Below, one piece after another: positions 14,444-35,382 of a stretch of 64,000 nucleotides of DNA. The stretch's first letter is position 1. Each line of letters starts with the position of its first letter. Source of the DNA: Eubacteriaceae bacterium (lineage in GTDB: Bacteria; Bacillota; Clostridia; Lachnospirales; Lachnospiraceae); the NCBI GenBank assembly GCA_902362875.1, contig CABIYF010000002.1, positions 62,001-126,000 of the forward strand. Reading direction: 5' to 3'. The notes beneath the pieces are model-generated. The model worked only from the letters and a program-made list of their open reading frames with translations, ran no database searches and was not told the origin of the DNA. Position numbers and translations under genes: made by a program.

Positions 14444-15250
14444 GTGGCACTTGGAAAAGTAATTCAGCGAATTGAAATTGAAATGTCGGGTGGGACAAAA
14501 CAGTATATGGTGTCTGCAAAACAGGGAGATCGGGCAACAAGATATGTCGAAACCGTACTACTGAATCATGGGGAACCGTACACGATCCCGGCAGGATCCA
14601 GCGTCACAGCTTTCATCAGAAAACCAGATAGACACAGGGTATATACACCGTGTGAATTCACGGACAATGTTGTGATGGTGGAATTGGACAGTCAGGCACT
14701 GGCAGCAGCGGGAACGGCATTGTGTGAAGTGGAAGTGAAATCTTCAGATCTGATGCAGGTGGTAACATCGGTCACTTTTGAAATAGAGATTGAAGCAAAG
14801 GTGAAAGATGAAGATGCGATCGTTTCGGGCGATGAACTTTCTATCTTCGATAAGACAATGAAACAGTATGCTGATCAGGAAACGAAACGTGTGAACGCAG
14901 AAGAAGCCAGAGTGCAGGCAGAAACAGGTCGCGTGAAGGCAGAGGAAGCCAGAGTGCAGGCAGAAACAGGTCGCGTGAAGGCAGAGAAAGCCAGAGCGCA
15001 GGCAGAAACAGGTCGTGTGAACGCGGAAAAAAGCAGAGTGTCAGCAGAAAGTGATCGAGTCACGGCAGAACAGGAAAGACAGAAGCAGGCGAATGAAGTT
15101 CTGGATAAGGCAAATGAAGCTGTAAAAATTGCGGGGCAGATCAATGAAGCGTCATATATGTTGGATAAAGATGAAAATATCAAATATGCATATGCAATTT
15201 ATACAGAACGGGGGATCCCGCATCTGGCATTAACACCGATCAATGAGTAA
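14444..15250 (+). CDS. Baseplate upper protein, BppU N-terminal type
   Basis: Protein of 268 aa starting at GTG 14444 after AAAGGAGGG. Residues 1-130 look like the BppU N-terminal domain (a beta sandwich that attaches to the tail). Residues ~150-210 are a coiled coil built from a 14-residue repeat (VQAETGRVKAEEAR and variants), followed by a short C-terminal domain. In lactococcal phages BppU anchors receptor-binding proteins, and here the next gene is the receptor-binding protein, so it probably links that protein to the tail tip. Confidence 0.78.
   Translation: MALGKVIQRIEIEMSGGTKQYMVSAKQGDRATRYVETVLLNHGEPYTIPAGSSVTAFIRKPDRHRVYTPCEFTDNVVMVELDSQALAAAGTALCEVEVKSSDLMQVVTSVTFEIEIEAKVKDEDAIVSGDELSIFDKTMKQYADQETKRVNAEEARVQAETGRVKAEEARVQAETGRVKAEKARAQAETGRVNAEKSRVSAESDRVTAEQERQKQANEVLDKANEAVKIAGQINEASYMLDKDENIKYAYAIYTERGIPHLALTPINE
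14903..15070 (+). repeat. 42-bp in-frame tandem repeat (coiled-coil stalk)
   Basis: A 42-bp unit starting GAAGCCAGAGTGCAGGCAG recurs at 14903, 14945, 14987 and, more divergent, 15029. The first two copies are nearly identical. It codes for 14 residues (two heptads) per unit, so gain or loss of a unit keeps frame and would change stalk length by two heptads. Confidence 0.85.
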
Positions 15251-15267: not shown

Positions 15268-16977
15268 ATGGAAGGAATTGATTTATCATTTCCGTCTTAT
15301 GCACAGCATGAGAGAATGGCGGCGGCACTGGAAGCGATCGCACTGAATGGCGGACAGAATTCGGCGGAAGCACTTGACGCTGCGTGCAGACAATTACTTG
15401 ACGGAACAAATACAACACGGGTTTTCTGGTCATGGTATCCGCGTGCGCTGGCAGCAGGAGAAACAGACAAGTATAAATTGCTTTCACGGTTTGCAACAGC
15501 AGCAGCGCAGGCATGGAATGGAAAGACGTATACACTGCGAAGCTATGATCCGTCAGTATCAGGAATAACAAAAATGACACCGATGGATGATCTGGCAGAT
15601 AAAGCGGCAGCACAGCTATGTACAGAAAATACTGAAGCGGTCGAGGACTGGGCGGATGAAGATCCGATGACATGGTATATCAGAGCAAACGCGCTGTCAC
15701 TGGAAGACGGAACCATGAACATCACATATTTTGAAGGTGAAGACGGTTTTGACATCACTGGTGAAGATGCACCAGTATATACATTTGCGCTTGCATTATG
15801 GATTAAAGAATGGAATGACGGTGCATACGATTATATTTCATTCAGAACAACAAGGGGATCCGGATATTATCCGGATGCGGGGGATGTGGATCCGAAAAAT
15901 AAAAAGCGACTGATCACATGGCACGCAACATTCCCCGGTGGCCTGGACAGCAAAGGCGCGTTGACATCCGGCGCAGGGATCAAGGCATATAACTTCGCAT
16001 CAGCAACGGCAGGGATCCAGAAGGCACGACAGAAAACAATTTATGAAGGACTGTGGAATGACTGCGATACAAGATGGATTCTTCGTATGTGGCAGTTAAG
16101 GCATTTTGATCTGGAAAACTCAAACATTGCCGAAGGATGCACAAATTACAACTATCAGTACATGGCGGCGTTGCCGGAAGAAAATGTGAAAAGGGTTCTT
16201 CTGTCTGCAAGTCAGGCAGCAGGATTCATTGTCGGATCCACGGTATCGGTTGGTGATATGGGCGCACAGTCGAATAAAGACAGATGGAATGCATGGATGC
16301 GTAACCTTGCGGATCTGGTGAAAGTATCTTCAATCGAAAAAGTAACAGTAAACGGAACGGAATACACAGCGATCAATCTTGACATCAGCGGAACGATCAC
16401 AACGACAGCAACAACGTGTATTTCAACTATGCCGTGGCATTCGGGCGCAACAGAAGCATTGCCGGGACATAAAGACGGATGCACATTCAGCCTGACAGCA
16501 GGAAAGACACCGCTTCGTGTTGCTGGTGTAGAAGTTTTGGATGGATCATATACGATCGGGCTGGATCCACTGTATGACACGACTGCAAACGAAGCAGGAG
16601 GATTTGATTATACTGTGTATCAGTGCCGCGACAGTCAGAAACTGTCAGGATCAATCACAGCGGACTATGAAGATACAGGCATTGTATATTCCGGTATGCC
16701 GTCCGGATGGAACTATGTGAAAGCATTTATCAAGTCAAAGTTGGGTATGCTGTTTCCGAAGCTGATCGGCGGATCTTCAACGACTTATTTTAAGTCGGCT
16801 TTCTACGGTACCAGCTCCGCCGGGGTTCGCTGCCCGTGGCGTTTTGCGAGCTTGAGCAATGGCGGGGCTGCTGGTCTGGCTGCGGAGGATGGCAACGCTG
16901 CGCCGGGTAACTCGCACTGGATCAGTCGTCCGCGGCTTTGTGGCGCGGGTAAAAAGCGGGGTGAATGGTCTGCGTAA
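15268..16977 (+). CDS. Receptor-binding tail protein, DGR target (C-type-lectin-like C-terminus)
   Basis: Protein of 569 aa started at an ATG after CAGGAGGAAAAG. Its last ~60 residues carry the DGR variable repeat (residues 510-558) and the end pattern SRPRLCG common in DGR targets with a C-type-lectin/FGE-like fold. Compared with the template, residues 516, 528, 530, 534, 541, 544, 550 and 552 have changed from Asn codons to Ser, Ser, Ser, Ala, Asp, Ala, His and Ile. The N-terminal ~450 residues would attach to the baseplate and form the lectin-fold scaffold. By analogy with the Bordetella phage Mtd protein it should bind a host surface receptor. The stop codon is inside the hairpin at 16966-16985. 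Confidence 0.9.
   Translation: MEGIDLSFPSYAQHERMAAALEAIALNGGQNSAEALDAACRQLLDGTNTTRVFWSWYPRALAAGETDKYKLLSRFATAAAQAWNGKTYTLRSYDPSVSGITKMTPMDDLADKAAAQLCTENTEAVEDWADEDPMTWYIRANALSLEDGTMNITYFEGEDGFDITGEDAPVYTFALALWIKEWNDGAYDYISFRTTRGSGYYPDAGDVDPKNKKRLITWHATFPGGLDSKGALTSGAGIKAYNFASATAGIQKARQKTIYEGLWNDCDTRWILRMWQLRHFDLENSNIAEGCTNYNYQYMAALPEENVKRVLLSASQAAGFIVGSTVSVGDMGAQSNKDRWNAWMRNLADLVKVSSIEKVTVNGTEYTAINLDISGTITTTATTCISTMPWHSGATEALPGHKDGCTFSLTAGKTPLRVAGVEVLDGSYTIGLDPLYDTTANEAGGFDYTVYQCRDSQKLSGSITADYEDTGIVYSGMPSGWNYVKAFIKSKLGMLFPKLIGGSSTTYFKSAFYGTSSAGVRCPWRFASLSNGGAAGLAAEDGNAAPGNSHWISRPRLCGAGKKRGEWSA
16795..16942 (+). repeat. DGR variable repeat (VR)
   Basis: 148 bp that aligns without gaps to the template at 17052-17199 (offset 257). 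Differences are at 16814, 16850, 16856, 16867, 16868, 16888, 16897, 16898, 16915, 16922, 16935, 16936 and 16940: 8 A to G, 4 A to C and 1 A to T. All 119 non-adenine template positions are identical. The last three differences and the divergence after 16942 may belong to the IMH/IMH* initiation segment rather than to mutagenesis. The invariant GC-rich block before them is 16923-16934. Confidence 0.97.
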
Positions 16978-16985
16978 GCAGACCA
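16966..16985 (+). promoter_or_regulatory. DGR target hairpin/cruciform downstream of VR
   Basis: Perfect 8-bp inverted repeat TGGTCTGC / GCAGACCA around a GTAA tetraloop, 23 bp after the VR end. The loop holds the stop codon of the target gene (16975-16977). DNA hairpins of 7-10 bp with 4-nt loops just after VR are known to help target recognition during DGR retrohoming. No such hairpin follows the template repeat, which fits a mark that tells the target from the template. Confidence 0.88.
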
Positions 16986-17051
16986 GAGGGGCAAGACCAC
17001 TCATACACACCTAACAGGAAAAGAAAATAAAAAGGGTATGCAGGCGCGGGA

Positions 17052-17199
17052 TCGGCTTTCTACGGTACCAACTCCGCCGGGGTTCGCTGCCCGTGGCGTT
17101 TTGCGAACTTGAACAATGGCGGGAATGCTGGTCTGGCTGCGGAGAATGGCAACAATGCGCCGGGTAACTCGAACTGGAACAGTCGTCCGCGAATTTATG
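17052..17199 (+). repeat. DGR template repeat (TR)
   Basis: Source copy for the variable repeat, 110 bp after it and 195 bp before the reverse transcriptase. It contains 29 adenines in 148 bp. Read in the target frame it has 11 AAY (Asn) codons, the codon type that gives the widest amino-acid change under adenine-specific mutagenesis and never a stop. Eight of the 11 have changed in VR (those for residues 531, 543 and 548 have not). It is non-coding in function and is copied as RNA. Confidence 0.96.
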
Positions 17200-17394
17200 T
17201 ATTTATGAAGGCAGGTGAAAACTTGCTGAAATGCGTCTGTATATCCGCGCATAAGCGAAAATCAGTAAAACCGGAAGCCGGGAAACTGGCATGTATAACC
17301 GTGGGTTATGCGTGCGACAAGTAGTAACAAGACGAATCCTGATTCAAGGATCTGTCGCAACCGAAAGTCGCTTCACACATAAAGTAAAAATAAG
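17200..17394 (+). ncRNA. DGR RNA 3' portion between TR and reverse transcriptase
   Basis: 195 bp with no credible gene. It contains a small hairpin (ATAACC-GTG-GGTTAT near 17297-17311) and possible pairing around 17334-17353. In studied DGRs the RNA just 3' of TR is structured and is needed for cDNA priming, so this stretch is the expected place for that function. Exact RNA ends are not visible, and no promoter of its own was found; it is probably part of the late transcript. Confidence 0.6.
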
Positions 17395-18789
17395 ATGGCA
17401 CATAAAAAGAGATATAAAAAGTTAAGCAGGCAGCTGTGCGAACAGGCAGTTGTTGAATGTTTCAAAGGAAAATGGAGAAGAAACGATGTACTGACGTTTA
17501 TTGAAAAGTATGCAGGAATTCCACGCGACGATATAAAAATAGATGATTTATCCGGATCGTGGAAGTATAAAAATGAAGCTGTTGAAGCGATTGGCTTGGC
17601 AATGCTTGGGATTGTGGAAGATCTGGTCGATCACGGAATAGAACCGGATGATATGGAACCAGTGACGATCCGGCAGCGTCCGGATGGAATGACAGGAAAG
17701 ATCAGGGACATTGCACTGTTGTGCATTATGCATCAGCTGATCGGTCATATTACGAAATTGATGATAGAACCATTGATTCAGGCGCGATTGCTTCCGACGC
17801 AACACGCAAGCATTCCGGGACACGGGCAGACAATGCTGAAAGATCAGATGTTGCGTTATTTCCTGAAGGAATCGCTGGGAATAGAATATGTGAGAAAAAC
17901 AGATGTTGTACATGCATATGCTTCACTTCAATATGATGTATGTATAGATCTGGTGATGATGGAAATCCCGAAAGCAAGATATGCGATCGGACTGCTGAAA
18001 TATTTAAAGAGCGTCGCACCGGGCGGACATCTGATCATCGGCGGGTATCTTGATGCATGGCTCTTTAATTTTACGATGTCGTATGCGATCCGCTATCTGT
18101 ATACACTGGGATCGACGCGAAGAGGGAAAAAGATACCATATGTTATACGCTGCGGAACATTTATGGATGATTTTTCGATAGGATCCGGATCCATAAAAGG
18201 AGAACAGCGGGCAGTGAAAGCATTGGACAAGTGGATGACAAAGAATCAGCACTTGCAAATAAAAGAAACGACAGGAATTGTCAAGCTGTTGCCGATTGAA
18301 GAAGAAAAGCGAAGGCGGAACCTGCCACGTCCGGGGCAAAGGGGCGTACCAATGCTGGACATGGCAGGATACAGAATCAGCAGAACACACATCACGATCC
18401 GGCGTCGCGTATTCAAAAGGGCAAGACGACAGCTGATCCGTGGATATAGAGAGCTGAAGCGTGATGGAACACTGCGCCGTGAACGGGCGCAGAAGATAAT
18501 ATCGTATAACAGCTATATTGAACAATCTGATTCATTCCATTTACAAGAAAGATACCACACGGAAGAACTGCTTCAGGTGGCACATCGCGTAAATGGATTC
18601 TATGGACAACTGGAATATCAGAAAAGAATGGAGGAATTGCATGATTTACTTGAACGTAGATGCAGATCAGAAGCCGGAAAAGGTAATGATGGAAAATCTT
18701 CCGGGTGGCGCAATGACCGTCAGGATGGCGGACAATATCAAGGAATACCGTCAGGAAGACGCAAAGGATCGGAAGATGTACCGTTTTGA
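17395..18789 (+). CDS. DGR reverse transcriptase (divergent motif 4)
   Basis: Protein of 464 aa that would copy the TR RNA into A-mutagenised cDNA. Motif A reads KTDVVHAYASL (Asp170), the catalytic box is FMDD (256-259) and a long basic thumb follows (residues ~300-425). The usual DGR motif 4 [I/V/L]GxxxSQ appears as IGGYLDA (215-221), so Ser-Gln is replaced by Asp-Ala. The N-terminal ~100 residues are helical and basic. The ATG at 17395 lacks a clear ribosome-binding site, consistent with low expression. The last 50 codons overlap the next gene in another frame. Assignment to a DGR is secured by the adjacent TR/VR pair; group II intron or retron identity is unlikely because no such RNA is seen. 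Confidence 0.92.
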   Translation: MAHKKRYKKLSRQLCEQAVVECFKGKWRRNDVLTFIEKYAGIPRDDIKIDDLSGSWKYKNEAVEAIGLAMLGIVEDLVDHGIEPDDMEPVTIRQRPDGMTGKIRDIALLCIMHQLIGHITKLMIEPLIQARLLPTQHASIPGHGQTMLKDQMLRYFLKESLGIEYVRKTDVVHAYASLQYDVCIDLVMMEIPKARYAIGLLKYLKSVAPGGHLIIGGYLDAWLFNFTMSYAIRYLYTLGSTRRGKKIPYVIRCGTFMDDFSIGSGSIKGEQRAVKALDKWMTKNQHLQIKETTGIVKLLPIEEEKRRRNLPRPGQRGVPMLDMAGYRISRTHITIRRRVFKRARRQLIRGYRELKRDGTLRRERAQKIISYNSYIEQSDSFHLQERYHTEELLQVAHRVNGFYGQLEYQKRMEELHDLLERRCRSEAGKGNDGKSSGWRNDRQDGGQYQGIPSGRRKGSEDVPF

Positions 18790-19042
18790 TGAAGTAGTGT
18801 TTGAACTTCCGGCGGACAGCACGATCACGACAAAACAGATCGAAGATGACTTTGAAAAATACTGGGAGTACGGGAAGACTGATCAGGCTGGAAAAGACGA
18901 AGACATGAAAGATGATGAACCGGATCCGGAAAGTGGGGGAATGACGCGGGCAGAAATGACCGTTGAAATTCAGAAACTTCAGGAAAAGAATGAAATGCTG
19001 GAATCCTGTCTGCTGGAAATGTCGGAGCTTGTATATGCTTAA
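18641..19042 (+). CDS. Tail-region protein upstream of XkdX, unknown role
   Basis: Protein of 133 aa, started at the ATG at 18641 after ATGGAGGAATTGC. The first 149 bp overlap the 3' end of the reverse transcriptase gene in a different frame. The N-terminal half is beta-rich (MIYLNVDADQKPEKVMMENL); a charged linker and a C-terminal coiled coil (KLQEKNEMLESCLLEMSEL) follow. Proteins of this type often precede XkdX in Firmicutes siphophages. It was considered as an Avd accessory protein and does not fit: Avd is a basic four-helix bundle, whereas this is acidic and starts with strands. Confidence 0.65.
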   Translation: MIYLNVDADQKPEKVMMENLPGGAMTVRMADNIKEYRQEDAKDRKMYRFDEVVFELPADSTITTKQIEDDFEKYWEYGKTDQAGKDEDMKDDEPDPESGGMTRAEMTVEIQKLQEKNEMLESCLLEMSELVYA

Positions 19043-24230: not shown

Positions 24231-25280
24231 ATGGAAAGAACGTTCAAACATTTGACAAAAGCAGACCGGATCAGAATTGAAGCATTGATAAAAGCGGGAG
24301 TAAAAATCAAAGAGATCGCGGACATGCTACATGTGCATAGAAGCACGATATACAGAGAGTTAAAAAGAGGACGTTTTACTGCGCTTAATTCAGATCTGAC
24401 AACGGAAGAAAGATACAGCCCTGATATTGCACATGATAAATATGAAGAAAATCTGAAAAGCAAAGGGGGCAGTCTGAAGATCGGGAATGACATCAAACTG
24501 GCAAATTATATTGAAGAAAAGATCGTGAAAGAAGATTACAGTCCGGCGGCGGTACTGGGGGAAATTAAGGCACAACAAAAAGAAAGCGAATTCAGCGTGA
24601 TGATCTGCACAACAACACTGTACAGTTATATTGATAAAGGGATCTTTCTACACCTGACAAATAAAAATCTTCCGGTTAAAAAGAATAAGAAACGCACATA
24701 CAAAAAGGTCAAGAAAACGCAGGCAAGAGCGTCAGCGGGTGAAAGTATAGAAAAAAGACCGGAAGAAATTGAAACACGCGAAGAGTTTGGACACTGGGAG
24801 ATGGACACGGTAAAAGGAAAGCGCGGGAAATCAAAGAACAGTCTTCTTGTGTTGACTGAAAGAAAAACACGCGATGAAATTGTGATGAAGTTGCCAGAGC
24901 ATACGGCGGCAGCAGTTGTCAACGCGCTGGATGTGATCGAAAGAAAGTGGGGCGATATGTTCAAACAAGTATTTAAAACGATTACGATGGATAACGGAAG
25001 TGAATTTGCAGACTGTGAAGGAATTGAACGGTCAGCACTGGGAGCAGGCAGCAGGACAAAGACATATTATTGCCATCCGTACAGCAGCTATGAAAGAGGA
25101 AGCAACGAAGTGACAAATAAAATGATCAGAAGACATATTCCAAAAGGAACAAACTTCGATGAAAAAACGGATGAAGAAATATCTGCGATTGAAAGCTGGG
25201 TGAATAATTATCCGCGTAAGATCCACGGCTATCATTCAGCGGGCGAACTGTTTGAAGAGGAGATCCGGAAAATCAGTTGA
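24231..25280 (+). CDS. IS30-family DDE transposase (possible phage recombinase)
   Basis: Intact protein of 349 aa. The N-terminal HTH (LTKADRIRIEALIKAGVKIK, then ADMLHVHRSTIYRELKRG) is the IS30-type end-binding domain. The catalytic triad is visible as MDTVKG (Asp192), TMDNGSEF (Asp254) and SSYERGSNE (Glu288), with 33 residues between Asp254 and Glu288, the IS30 DD(33)E spacing. A ribosome-binding site (AAGGAGAAAGCGG) precedes the ATG. No matching inverted repeat was found just upstream, so it does not look like a free 1.1-kb insertion sequence. It is the last gene of the prophage, and no tyrosine or serine integrase is in the window, so it may move the phage itself. Confidence 0.9.
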   Translation: MERTFKHLTKADRIRIEALIKAGVKIKEIADMLHVHRSTIYRELKRGRFTALNSDLTTEERYSPDIAHDKYEENLKSKGGSLKIGNDIKLANYIEEKIVKEDYSPAAVLGEIKAQQKESEFSVMICTTTLYSYIDKGIFLHLTNKNLPVKKNKKRTYKKVKKTQARASAGESIEKRPEEIETREEFGHWEMDTVKGKRGKSKNSLLVLTERKTRDEIVMKLPEHTAAAVVNALDVIERKWGDMFKQVFKTITMDNGSEFADCEGIERSALGAGSRTKTYYCHPYSSYERGSNEVTNKMIRRHIPKGTNFDEKTDEEISAIESWVNNYPRKIHGYHSAGELFEEEIRKIS

Positions 25281-25419: not shown

Positions 25420-26967
25420 GTGGTTGGTATTATTATAGCCATTATCGCAACTCTGGTTATCTCAGTTCCAGTATCTGCCTATGTTGCTAATACAAGAAGC
25501 AAGAAGGCCATGGAGATTACGATCGGGAACGCAGAAGATAAGGCAAGAGAGATTATAGATGAAGCGATCAAAGCAGCCGATGCGAAGAAACGTGAAGCTT
25601 CTTTGGAAGTAAAAGAAGAAACTATAAAAGCGAGACATGACTTTGAAAAAGAGACAAAAGAACGCAGGGCAGAACTGCAGAAGTATGAGCAGAGAGTTCT
25701 CTCTAAAGAAGAAACTGTTGAGAAGAAAGCTACAACATTAGAGCGCAAAGAACAGTCATTAGCATCCAAAGAGAAGAACATTGAGACAGAGAAAGCTCAG
25801 TTGCAGGAACTGCAGGCAAAACATCTACAGGAACTGGAAAGAATTTCCGGGTTGACCTCTGATCAGGCAAAAGAGCAATTATTATCAGCAGTAAAAGAAG
25901 ATGTGAAACACGAGACAGCAATGTATGTCAAAGAAATGGAGACAAGAGCGAAAGAAGATGCCCGAAAGAAAGCCAAGGAATATGTGGTGACTGCAATCCA
26001 GAAGTGTGCAGTTGATCATGTGGCAGAGACAACGATTTCGCTGGTACAGCTTCCAAACGATGAGATGAAGGGAAGAATCATCGGTCGTGAAGGACGTAAT
26101 ATCCGTTCAATTGAGAACATTACCGGCGTTGAATTGATTATCGACGATACACCGGAAGCAGTTGTACTGTCAAGCTTTAATCCGGTTCGAAGAGAAATCG
26201 CAAGAATCGCCTTAGAGAAACTGATCGTGGATGGAAGAATCCATCCGGCACGCATCGAGGAGATGGTCGAGAAAGCGACAAAAGAAGTCGAGACTATGAT
26301 GCGCGAAGAAGGAGAAGCAGCAACATTAGAACTTGGGGTTCATGGAATCCATCCAGAACTTGTCAGACTTCTTGGTAGAATGAAGTTCCGTACAAGTTAT
26401 GGACAGAATGCATTAAAACATTCCATGGAAGTTGCACAGCTGTCCGGACTTTTAGCAGCAGAGATCGGTGTCGATGTAAGAATGGCCAAGAGAGCAGGTC
26501 TGCTTCATGACATCGGTAAAGCAATCGACCACGAAGTAGAAGGTTCTCATGTAGAACTCGGTGTGAATCTGTGTAAGAAGTATAAGGAGAATCCAATTGT
26601 CATCAATGCAGTGGCATCTCATCATGGGGATGAAGAACCAGAATCATTGATCGCATGTCTTGTACAGGCAGCTGATGCAATCTCAGCAGCACGTCCAGGT
26701 GCAAGAAGCGAGACACTGGAAAGTTATACAACAAGATTAAAACAGCTGGAAGAGATCGCAGACTCCTTCCAGGGTGTTGATAAAACTTTTGCAATTCAGG
26801 CAGGTCGAGAAATTCGAGTTATGGTAGTTCCTGAACAAATTAGTGACGATGATATGATCTTACTGGCAAGAGATATTTCAAACCAGATCGAAGAGAATCT
26901 GGATTATCCAGGACAGATCAAGGTCAATGTAATCAGAGAGTCACGAGTTGTTGACTATGCGAAATAA
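25420..26967 (+). CDS. rny: Ribonuclease Y
   Basis: Protein of 515 aa starting at GTG 25420 after AAGGAGGAAACC. An N-terminal membrane anchor ([20 protein letters not shown]) is followed by a long charged coiled coil (residues ~30-200), a KH domain ([20 protein letters not shown]) and an HD domain ([15 protein letters not shown]). RNase Y is the membrane-bound endonuclease that starts mRNA decay in Firmicutes. Length and domain order are normal. It has its own promoter and a terminator after it. Confidence 0.97.
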
Positions 26968-29420: not shown

Positions 29421-29490
29421 AGGAAATGTAAACAGAAAACACTTTCATTTTCTGGTAATTGAATATTGAAGTAGAGAAGATTGATTCTCC

Positions 29491-29630
29491 AACTTCAGGG
29501 CAGAGTGAGATATCGAAGATATCAATTCTCGACTGGCGGTGATACTCCAAGAGAGGTAAGTCCGCGAGCGCTAAGCCGATCAGGTTAGAATCCTGAACCA
29601 ACAGTATAGTCTGGATGAAAGAAGTAGTTG
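29491..29630 (+). ncRNA. FMN riboswitch (RFN element)
   Basis: Conserved RFN blocks are visible in order: AGGGCAGAGTGAGAT, CTGGCGGTGAT, AAGTCCGCGAGCGC, GGTTAGAATCCTGAACC, CAACAGTATAGTCTGGATG and a closing GAAGTAG that pairs with ACTTC at 29492-29496 (P1). It senses FMN and controls the riboflavin transporter downstream, together with the terminator at 29686-29727. Confidence 0.96.
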
Positions 29631-34950: not shown

Positions 34951-35382
34951 GTACGATAATGTTATGATAAACCAAGATAGGGAATAAATGGAAGAGAATA
35001 CAATATCAGAAAATTCTAAAAACAAATCAAAATGATAATCGATCAATCGAATCAGACAATCCATTCACGACAAGATGATCAAATGATGAATCCAAGGGAA
35101 GTTTTGACAACTGAATAAGACCATTTTCCGGTACGGTCCGAAGAGGACATATCCCGCCATGATCTGTGTAATCTATTTATGAGAGAAGCTTATAATACAA
35201 GATTCTGCTTTTGATACCGGGCAGAAGACAGGGAGCGAACAAGGATATGATAATGAGACTTCTGCATGGTCATGGAGGTGAGTGCAGCCTGTCATAAGAA
35301 TGAGGGGAGCTGGGATGCTATGAGACGATTCTGTCTGCTGGAGAATGAGGGAAAGACGATAACAACAAGGAGGGCAGTATTC
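34951..35382 (+). promoter_or_regulatory. Long leader of the 35.4-kb surface protein gene
   Basis: 432 bp without a convincing gene. A TATAAT lies at 35191-35196 but has no good -35 at 17 bp, so the promoter may depend on an activator or another sigma factor. From there a leader of ~180 nt with several possible hairpins (CTGC/GCAG at 35205-35224, GAAG/CTTC at 35224-35262) runs to the gene. The related phrases GAATGAGGGGAGC and GAATGAGGGAAAG occur at 35298 and 35343. It matches no riboswitch that I know; the c-di-GMP-I core was looked for and not found. Confidence 0.4.

Follow-up and report, generated by a model that had tools for sequence, protein, structure and literature searches.

Organization of the cassette

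The first 22 kb of the 64,000-nucleotide stretch of contig CABIYF010000002.1 analyzed here (the window) are prophage, and the source is a human-gut bacterium. The prophage carries a cassette with the parts of a diversity-generating retroelement (DGR), all on the forward strand. A target gene (15268..16977), an open reading frame (ORF) of 569 aa, has a variable repeat (VR, 16795..16942) at its 3' end, and is followed by a template repeat (TR, 17052..17199), a structured spacer RNA of 195 nt (17200..17394) and the gene for a reverse transcriptase (RT, 17395..18789), an open ORF of 464 aa. At an offset of 257, VR and TR align without gaps over 148 bp and differ at 13 positions, every one at a TR adenine, although TR contains 29 adenines and 119 other bases (P = 4.4e-11 for all 13 on A, hypergeometric). 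Eight of the 11 AAY codons in TR are changed in VR, to Ser (three), Ala (two), Asp, His and Ile. An initial annotation of this DNA had reported the same repeat pair and mismatches, which were reproduced exactly, and our recount of the altered Asn codons and the position of the RT downstream of TR agree with it. The cassette is a real DGR of known kind, with an unusual subtype of RT.

Variation among related strains and proteins

A contig of Hominifimenecus microfluidus CLA-AA-H215 (JAJEQR010000007.1, here L010) is 98.4% identical to the window over 9.1 kb. Comparison of VR and TR in related strains had been suggested in the initial annotation, and between these two the TR is constant (0/148 differences) while VR turnover (17/148) is confined to TR-adenine sites (hypergeometric, 6e-15). 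Elsewhere in the cassette the differences number 0/109 in the VR-TR linker, 1/195 in the TR-RT spacer, 2/1395 in the RT gene and 12/1527 in the target gene 5' of VR. A third copy, L049 (MT836832), has an identical TR and covers only part of VR, in which it shows no non-A difference from TR. Viral contigs gave 0 exact matches to the VR-TR linker.

The same pattern is seen in a set of 80 target proteins, consisting of that of the window and 79 (P0121-P0199) of the best 120 of 701 homologs, all 569 aa long and 96–99% identical. The 11 AAY codons have a mean pairwise difference of 0.858 and four other A-containing codons one of 0.453, against 0.021 at the 31 VR codons without A and 0.011 at the 509 residues 5' of VR (59 variable). 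The parts from VR to the end are distinct in 79/79 cases, compared with 48 distinct upstream parts. Because the VR differences from L010 all lie at TR adenines and target variation is concentrated at A-containing codons, adenine-directed diversification has, on this comparative evidence, run in the lineage of the window. The earlier claim that the element has been active is upheld by these data.

The 3' boundary of variation

All 13 VR/TR differences were originally read as products of mutagenesis. This stands for 10 of them; the other three (16935, 16936 and 16940) have the same bases in the window, L010 and L049, though other A sites differ. Residues 556–558 are invariant in 80/80 target proteins (mean pairwise difference 0.000), and the 11 residues following differ by 0.002; since 16935 is synonymous, its fixation is backed by the three DNA copies only. 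In 9/33 rows of the wider RT clade described below, TR itself reads GGCTTTC at the fixed sites, matching the VRs, whereas TR has A there in the window and in its closer relatives (L001, L024 and L033). These three positions look like fixed TR/VR differences of a 3' end resembling an initiation of mutagenic homing (IMH) site (16925..16942). Without them, differences occur at 10/26 adenines and 0/114 other bases (p = 9e-9). The earlier interpretation is partly upheld, as a DGR with past activity, with the count of mutagenized sites corrected to 10. Since the last diversified adenine is 16924 and 16935 is fixed, mutated cDNA would be transferred up to a point between these two positions.

Downstream lies a hairpin or cruciform-like site (16966..16985), with an 8-bp stem and a GTAA loop, 23 nt past VR; the DNA fold of 16943–17010 has a z-score of -5.1. 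Stems of at least 7 bp within 90 nt 3' of VR are present at 27/33 loci of the clade compared with 56/990 random windows from the same loci, although many of the 27 rows are near-copies and 5/27 have a different, later stem. Several of the stems differ in sequence while pairing is kept. Guo et al. describe post-VR hairpins as GC-rich stems of 7–10 bp with GRNA loops, 4–34 bp past VR (PMC3240598). An IMH-like fixed end with a downstream hairpin is present here, the loop aside.

The target protein

Pfam finds no family in the target protein, which belongs to phrog_17147, a family without assigned function. A Foldseek search of its structure against the PDB gave no match at E <= 0.001, and alignment against PDB sequences gave two weak, unrelated matches. 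The lectin fold that the initial annotation predicted for the variable site is thus at most a candidate C-type lectin fold. It resembles a DGR variable protein, and its matches among predicted viral structures are mostly tail fibers or unnamed proteins. Its gene follows, in order, those for portal, Clp-type protease and capsid, then tape measure and Dit, and a BppU_N gene; 3' of the cassette are small genes, a holin gene and a CW_7 cell-wall-binding gene. The adjoining BppU_N gene contains 21/42-nt repeats (14879–15088).

We infer that the target is the putative receptor-binding protein of the phage, its variants altering which cells are bound, and a change of host range through VR variation is plausible. 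An active DGR might instead diversify a protein that does not bind a host receptor, such as a structural or enzymatic part of the tail, and the unassigned phrog and the lack of a Pfam family would suit this. The position of the gene between Dit and other tail genes on one side and holin and CW_7 genes on the other, together with the resemblance to DGR variable proteins and the tail-fiber structure matches, makes this an unlikely reading, though the best placed of the alternatives considered here.

An RT clade with DA in place of SQ

Comparison of the RT fold gave the Bordetella phage BPP-1 RT (bRT) as first match, and the catalytic Asp residues are present, including the [YF]xDD motif as FMDD (18160..18171). 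Motif 4, however, reads IGGYLDAWLFN (18037..18069) in place of the DGR RT signature (I/V/L)GxxxSQ, with D220-A221 at 18052–18057. The SQ dipeptide is reported in about 90% of 155 DGRs and was proposed in 2012 to set infidelity (PMC3521204), while exceptions have been taken as probable inactivations or errors (PMC4244168).

The exception seen here is shared. IGGYLDA is found in 114/115 readable homologs, and D170, D258, D259, D220-A221, R104 and I215 are each conserved in 36/36 RTs long enough to align, from 39 entries of what we call the DA clade; R104 and I215 occupy the places of bRT R74 and I181. In a tree of 71 rows, all DA rows fall on one side of a branch with a Shimodaira-Hasegawa-like approximate likelihood-ratio (SH-aLRT) support of 100, and when rooted on BPP-1 the clade sits among SQ-type DGR RTs, although the tree held DGR RTs only and the very long BPP-1 branch leaves the root unsure. 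Its members come from genomes of Clostridia and from virus contigs of gut or rumen type. That phages of gut Firmicutes carry DGRs is well established (PMC8144416; PMC11792537). No report of the DA clade was found in the literature searched, but large survey tables lay outside that search and an earlier listing, such as in the data of Roux et al. 2021, is quite possible.

The spacer RNA and the accessory protein

The spacer between TR and RT folds better than 200/200 shuffles (RNA fold z -4.1). Twenty-two clade loci were aligned and 18 kept, after dropping L006 (a near-copy) and L020, L041 and L048 (long inserts). RNAalifold gave a consensus of 17 pairs, 15 of them with double-sided compensatory change. 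Cells of the spacer alignment were paired in 91.4% of cases versus 71.3% when shuffled and 36–51% when slid, with the structure derived from the same alignment, which favors it over the slid versions. An Rfam scan of the cassette returned no family at gathering score. Recruitment of the RT-Avd complex and priming of cDNA synthesis are functions of the spacer in BPP-1 (PMC12875486), and by analogy the spacer RNA of the window may have the same role.

The accessory protein family bAvd (PF22296) was found in 2/29 records searched, BPP-1 (the positive control) and the host genome of L014. The latter has two copies, both outside the 8.1-kb L014 stretch (by a shared-word check), one of them beside an SQ-type RT. 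The 10 virus records of the clade, some of them perhaps fragments, gave no bAvd, nor did its four other host genomes or 13 records of the SQ group besides BPP-1. A small gene between VR and TR in L014 (4020–4600) is by eye like the window gene at 18593–19042; because it stands there, the TR-RT block has moved relative to the target gene. A VR-TR spacing of 727–728 bp also occurs in L023 and L046, the latter being the same 39,571-base contig as L014. The product of this gene, 106 aa, was considered as an Avd and rejected, as it resembles the window gene and matched no Pfam family. A divergent or unrelated accessory protein may take the place of bAvd.

Adenine specificity in the DA clade

In 41 DA entries, the sequence 5' of the RT was searched for its best direct repeat, with uniform scoring of mismatches. 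Three had too short an upstream sequence, two (L009 and L034, one contig) had no repeat, L040 had its best repeat elsewhere, and three pairs were identical, leaving 32 distinct pairs. In these, 478/849 TR adenines are changed compared with 16/3657 other bases, and with the last 14 bp of each pair removed the counts are 452/807 and 8/3251; many of the pairs come from near-identical phages and are not independent elements. In the VR/TR pair of L040, 19/19 changes are at A. An altered mutation spectrum was also considered. The proportions of A to G/T/C are 0.48/0.30/0.22 in the clade versus 0.39/0.37/0.24 in SQ relatives, a small difference from related pairs preselected for at least 70% of mismatches on one base, and no conclusion is drawn from it.

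Since the clade lacks SQ and is still adenine-specific, the sequence patterns argue that adenine mutagenesis can do without SQ. Probably, then, SQ has been swapped for an invariant DA (G217, W222 and F224 are also fixed) in a widespread clade of DGR RTs from Clostridia phages that remains adenine-only, in which case adenine mutagenesis would depend on other residues. Candidates are the counterparts of bRT R74 and I181, which are both kept.

Some observations weigh against a working DGR in the window. No bAvd was detected among the neighboring window genes scanned; as just 62% of non-redundant DGR RTs in complete genomes co-occur with an Avd-like domain (PMC8934634), this is not disqualifying. 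The hairpin loop is GTAA, which does not fit the published GRNA at its second base. Residue 511, whose TR codon (GCT) has no A, differs in 17/80 of the near-identical target proteins; perhaps other TRs carry A at that codon. One DA-clade contig (L009/L034) has an RT and lacks distinct copies of VR and TR. The RT of the virus record L048 (5001–6339) is split in two frames, either by recent loss or by assembly error, although 16/16 changes in its VR/TR pair are still at adenines. At L034:4682–4845 there is a single repeat, where the target gene continues directly into a tail resembling TR and the spacer RNA, as though a deletion had fused VR with TR, giving a naturally broken DGR.

These broken members, the missing SQ and an RT score of 20.9 against a Pfam cut-off of 29.6 (RVT_1) would fit an inactive RT, with the VR pattern a relic or made in trans by another DGR RT of SQ type. 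However, near-identical strains have different VRs with just 2 nt of difference in their RTs, and the clade-wide conservation of the catalytic residues and of the IGGYLDA motif also stands against it. A search of 11 host or virus records for RTs gave matches at the RT loci of the clade itself (two in each of G004, L005 and L007) and two further RTs of H. microfluidus; no trans-acting SQ-type RT was seen in them, though the virus records may be fragments and other hosts lay outside this search. The H. microfluidus assembly has three RTs, one of the window type and two with QGGNLSP and QGGILSP, presumably as in group II introns, and no other DGR-like RT. Because the other two RTs of that strain carry these motifs, action in trans by an SQ-type RT is unlikely there, and overall we consider an inactive RT, with a relic or trans-made VR pattern, very improbable. 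Direct repeats do occur elsewhere in these phages (as in the BppU_N gene), but an ordinary duplication drifting apart, with an A bias from chance or composition, is a negligible prospect given the probability for the window pair, the counts from the 32 clade pairs, and strain differences that are A-only while TR and the upstream part of the target gene barely differ.

Sequences beyond the prophage

Past the prophage are a gene with HTH_38 and rve domains (24231–25280), which we take to be an IS30-like transposase, and a gene for RNase Y at 25420, the former lying between the prophage and the latter. Rfam also detected an FMN riboswitch at 29487–29630 (90.2 bits) and a marginal pemK RNA match at 35250–35323 (37.2 bits; cut-off 34.8), which overlaps the start of a 1267-aa ORF.

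Proposed mechanism and comparison with known DGRs

We are highly confident that the cassette is a prophage-borne DGR working by mutagenic retrohoming. By analogy with BPP-1, an RNA spanning TR and the structured spacer would be copied by the RT, which would misincorporate opposite template adenines, and the IMH-like 3' end, together with the hairpin, would then guide the replacement of VR by the cDNA.

Among natural systems that diversify proteins in a programmed, adenine-targeted way, DGRs are the best known. For the question of what makes their RTs err at adenines only, the DA clade offers a natural comparison, as the signature dipeptide has been swapped wholesale and the mutation pattern kept. 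Finders that look for the SQ motif or use the Pfam family RVT_1 can overlook such elements, since the RT scores below the Pfam cut-off, a Pfam label is present on 25 of the best 120 of 387 RT homologs found, and a DGR with SP for SQ in its RT is reported to have escaped the finder myDGR (2024, PMC11054128).

The DGR of Bordetella phage BPP-1 (mtd, avd, TR, brt) has Avd, which is needed there, while no bAvd was found with the window cassette. Its RT is 328 aa with IGSLTSQ as motif 4, compared with 464 aa and IGGYLDA, its VR/TR are 134 bp (record annotation) compared with 148 bp, and its target is Mtd, which Pfam does not recognize in the window target. SQ-type DGRs of gut phages (L050, L051, L054, L056 and kin) share with the window a TR and VR upstream of the RT, adenine-only changes and the lack of bAvd in the SQ-group records searched, but their motif is mostly IGSYLSQ and their VR/TR mostly about 90–110 bp, against about 145 bp in the DA type. 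The DGR of crAssE-Sib phage, as described in PMC11054128, has a GxxxSP RT, likewise without the SQ dipeptide; SP is found there in one group of crAss-like phages, whereas the DA type is a separate clade. In the DiGReF set, 15/155 had other residues at the two final motif positions (SP, SH, NQ, PA, AQ and VQ) with A exchanges still shown (PMC3521204). DA is not one of the variants given there, which were suspected to be errors or recent inactivations; DA as found here is a conserved trait of a clade.

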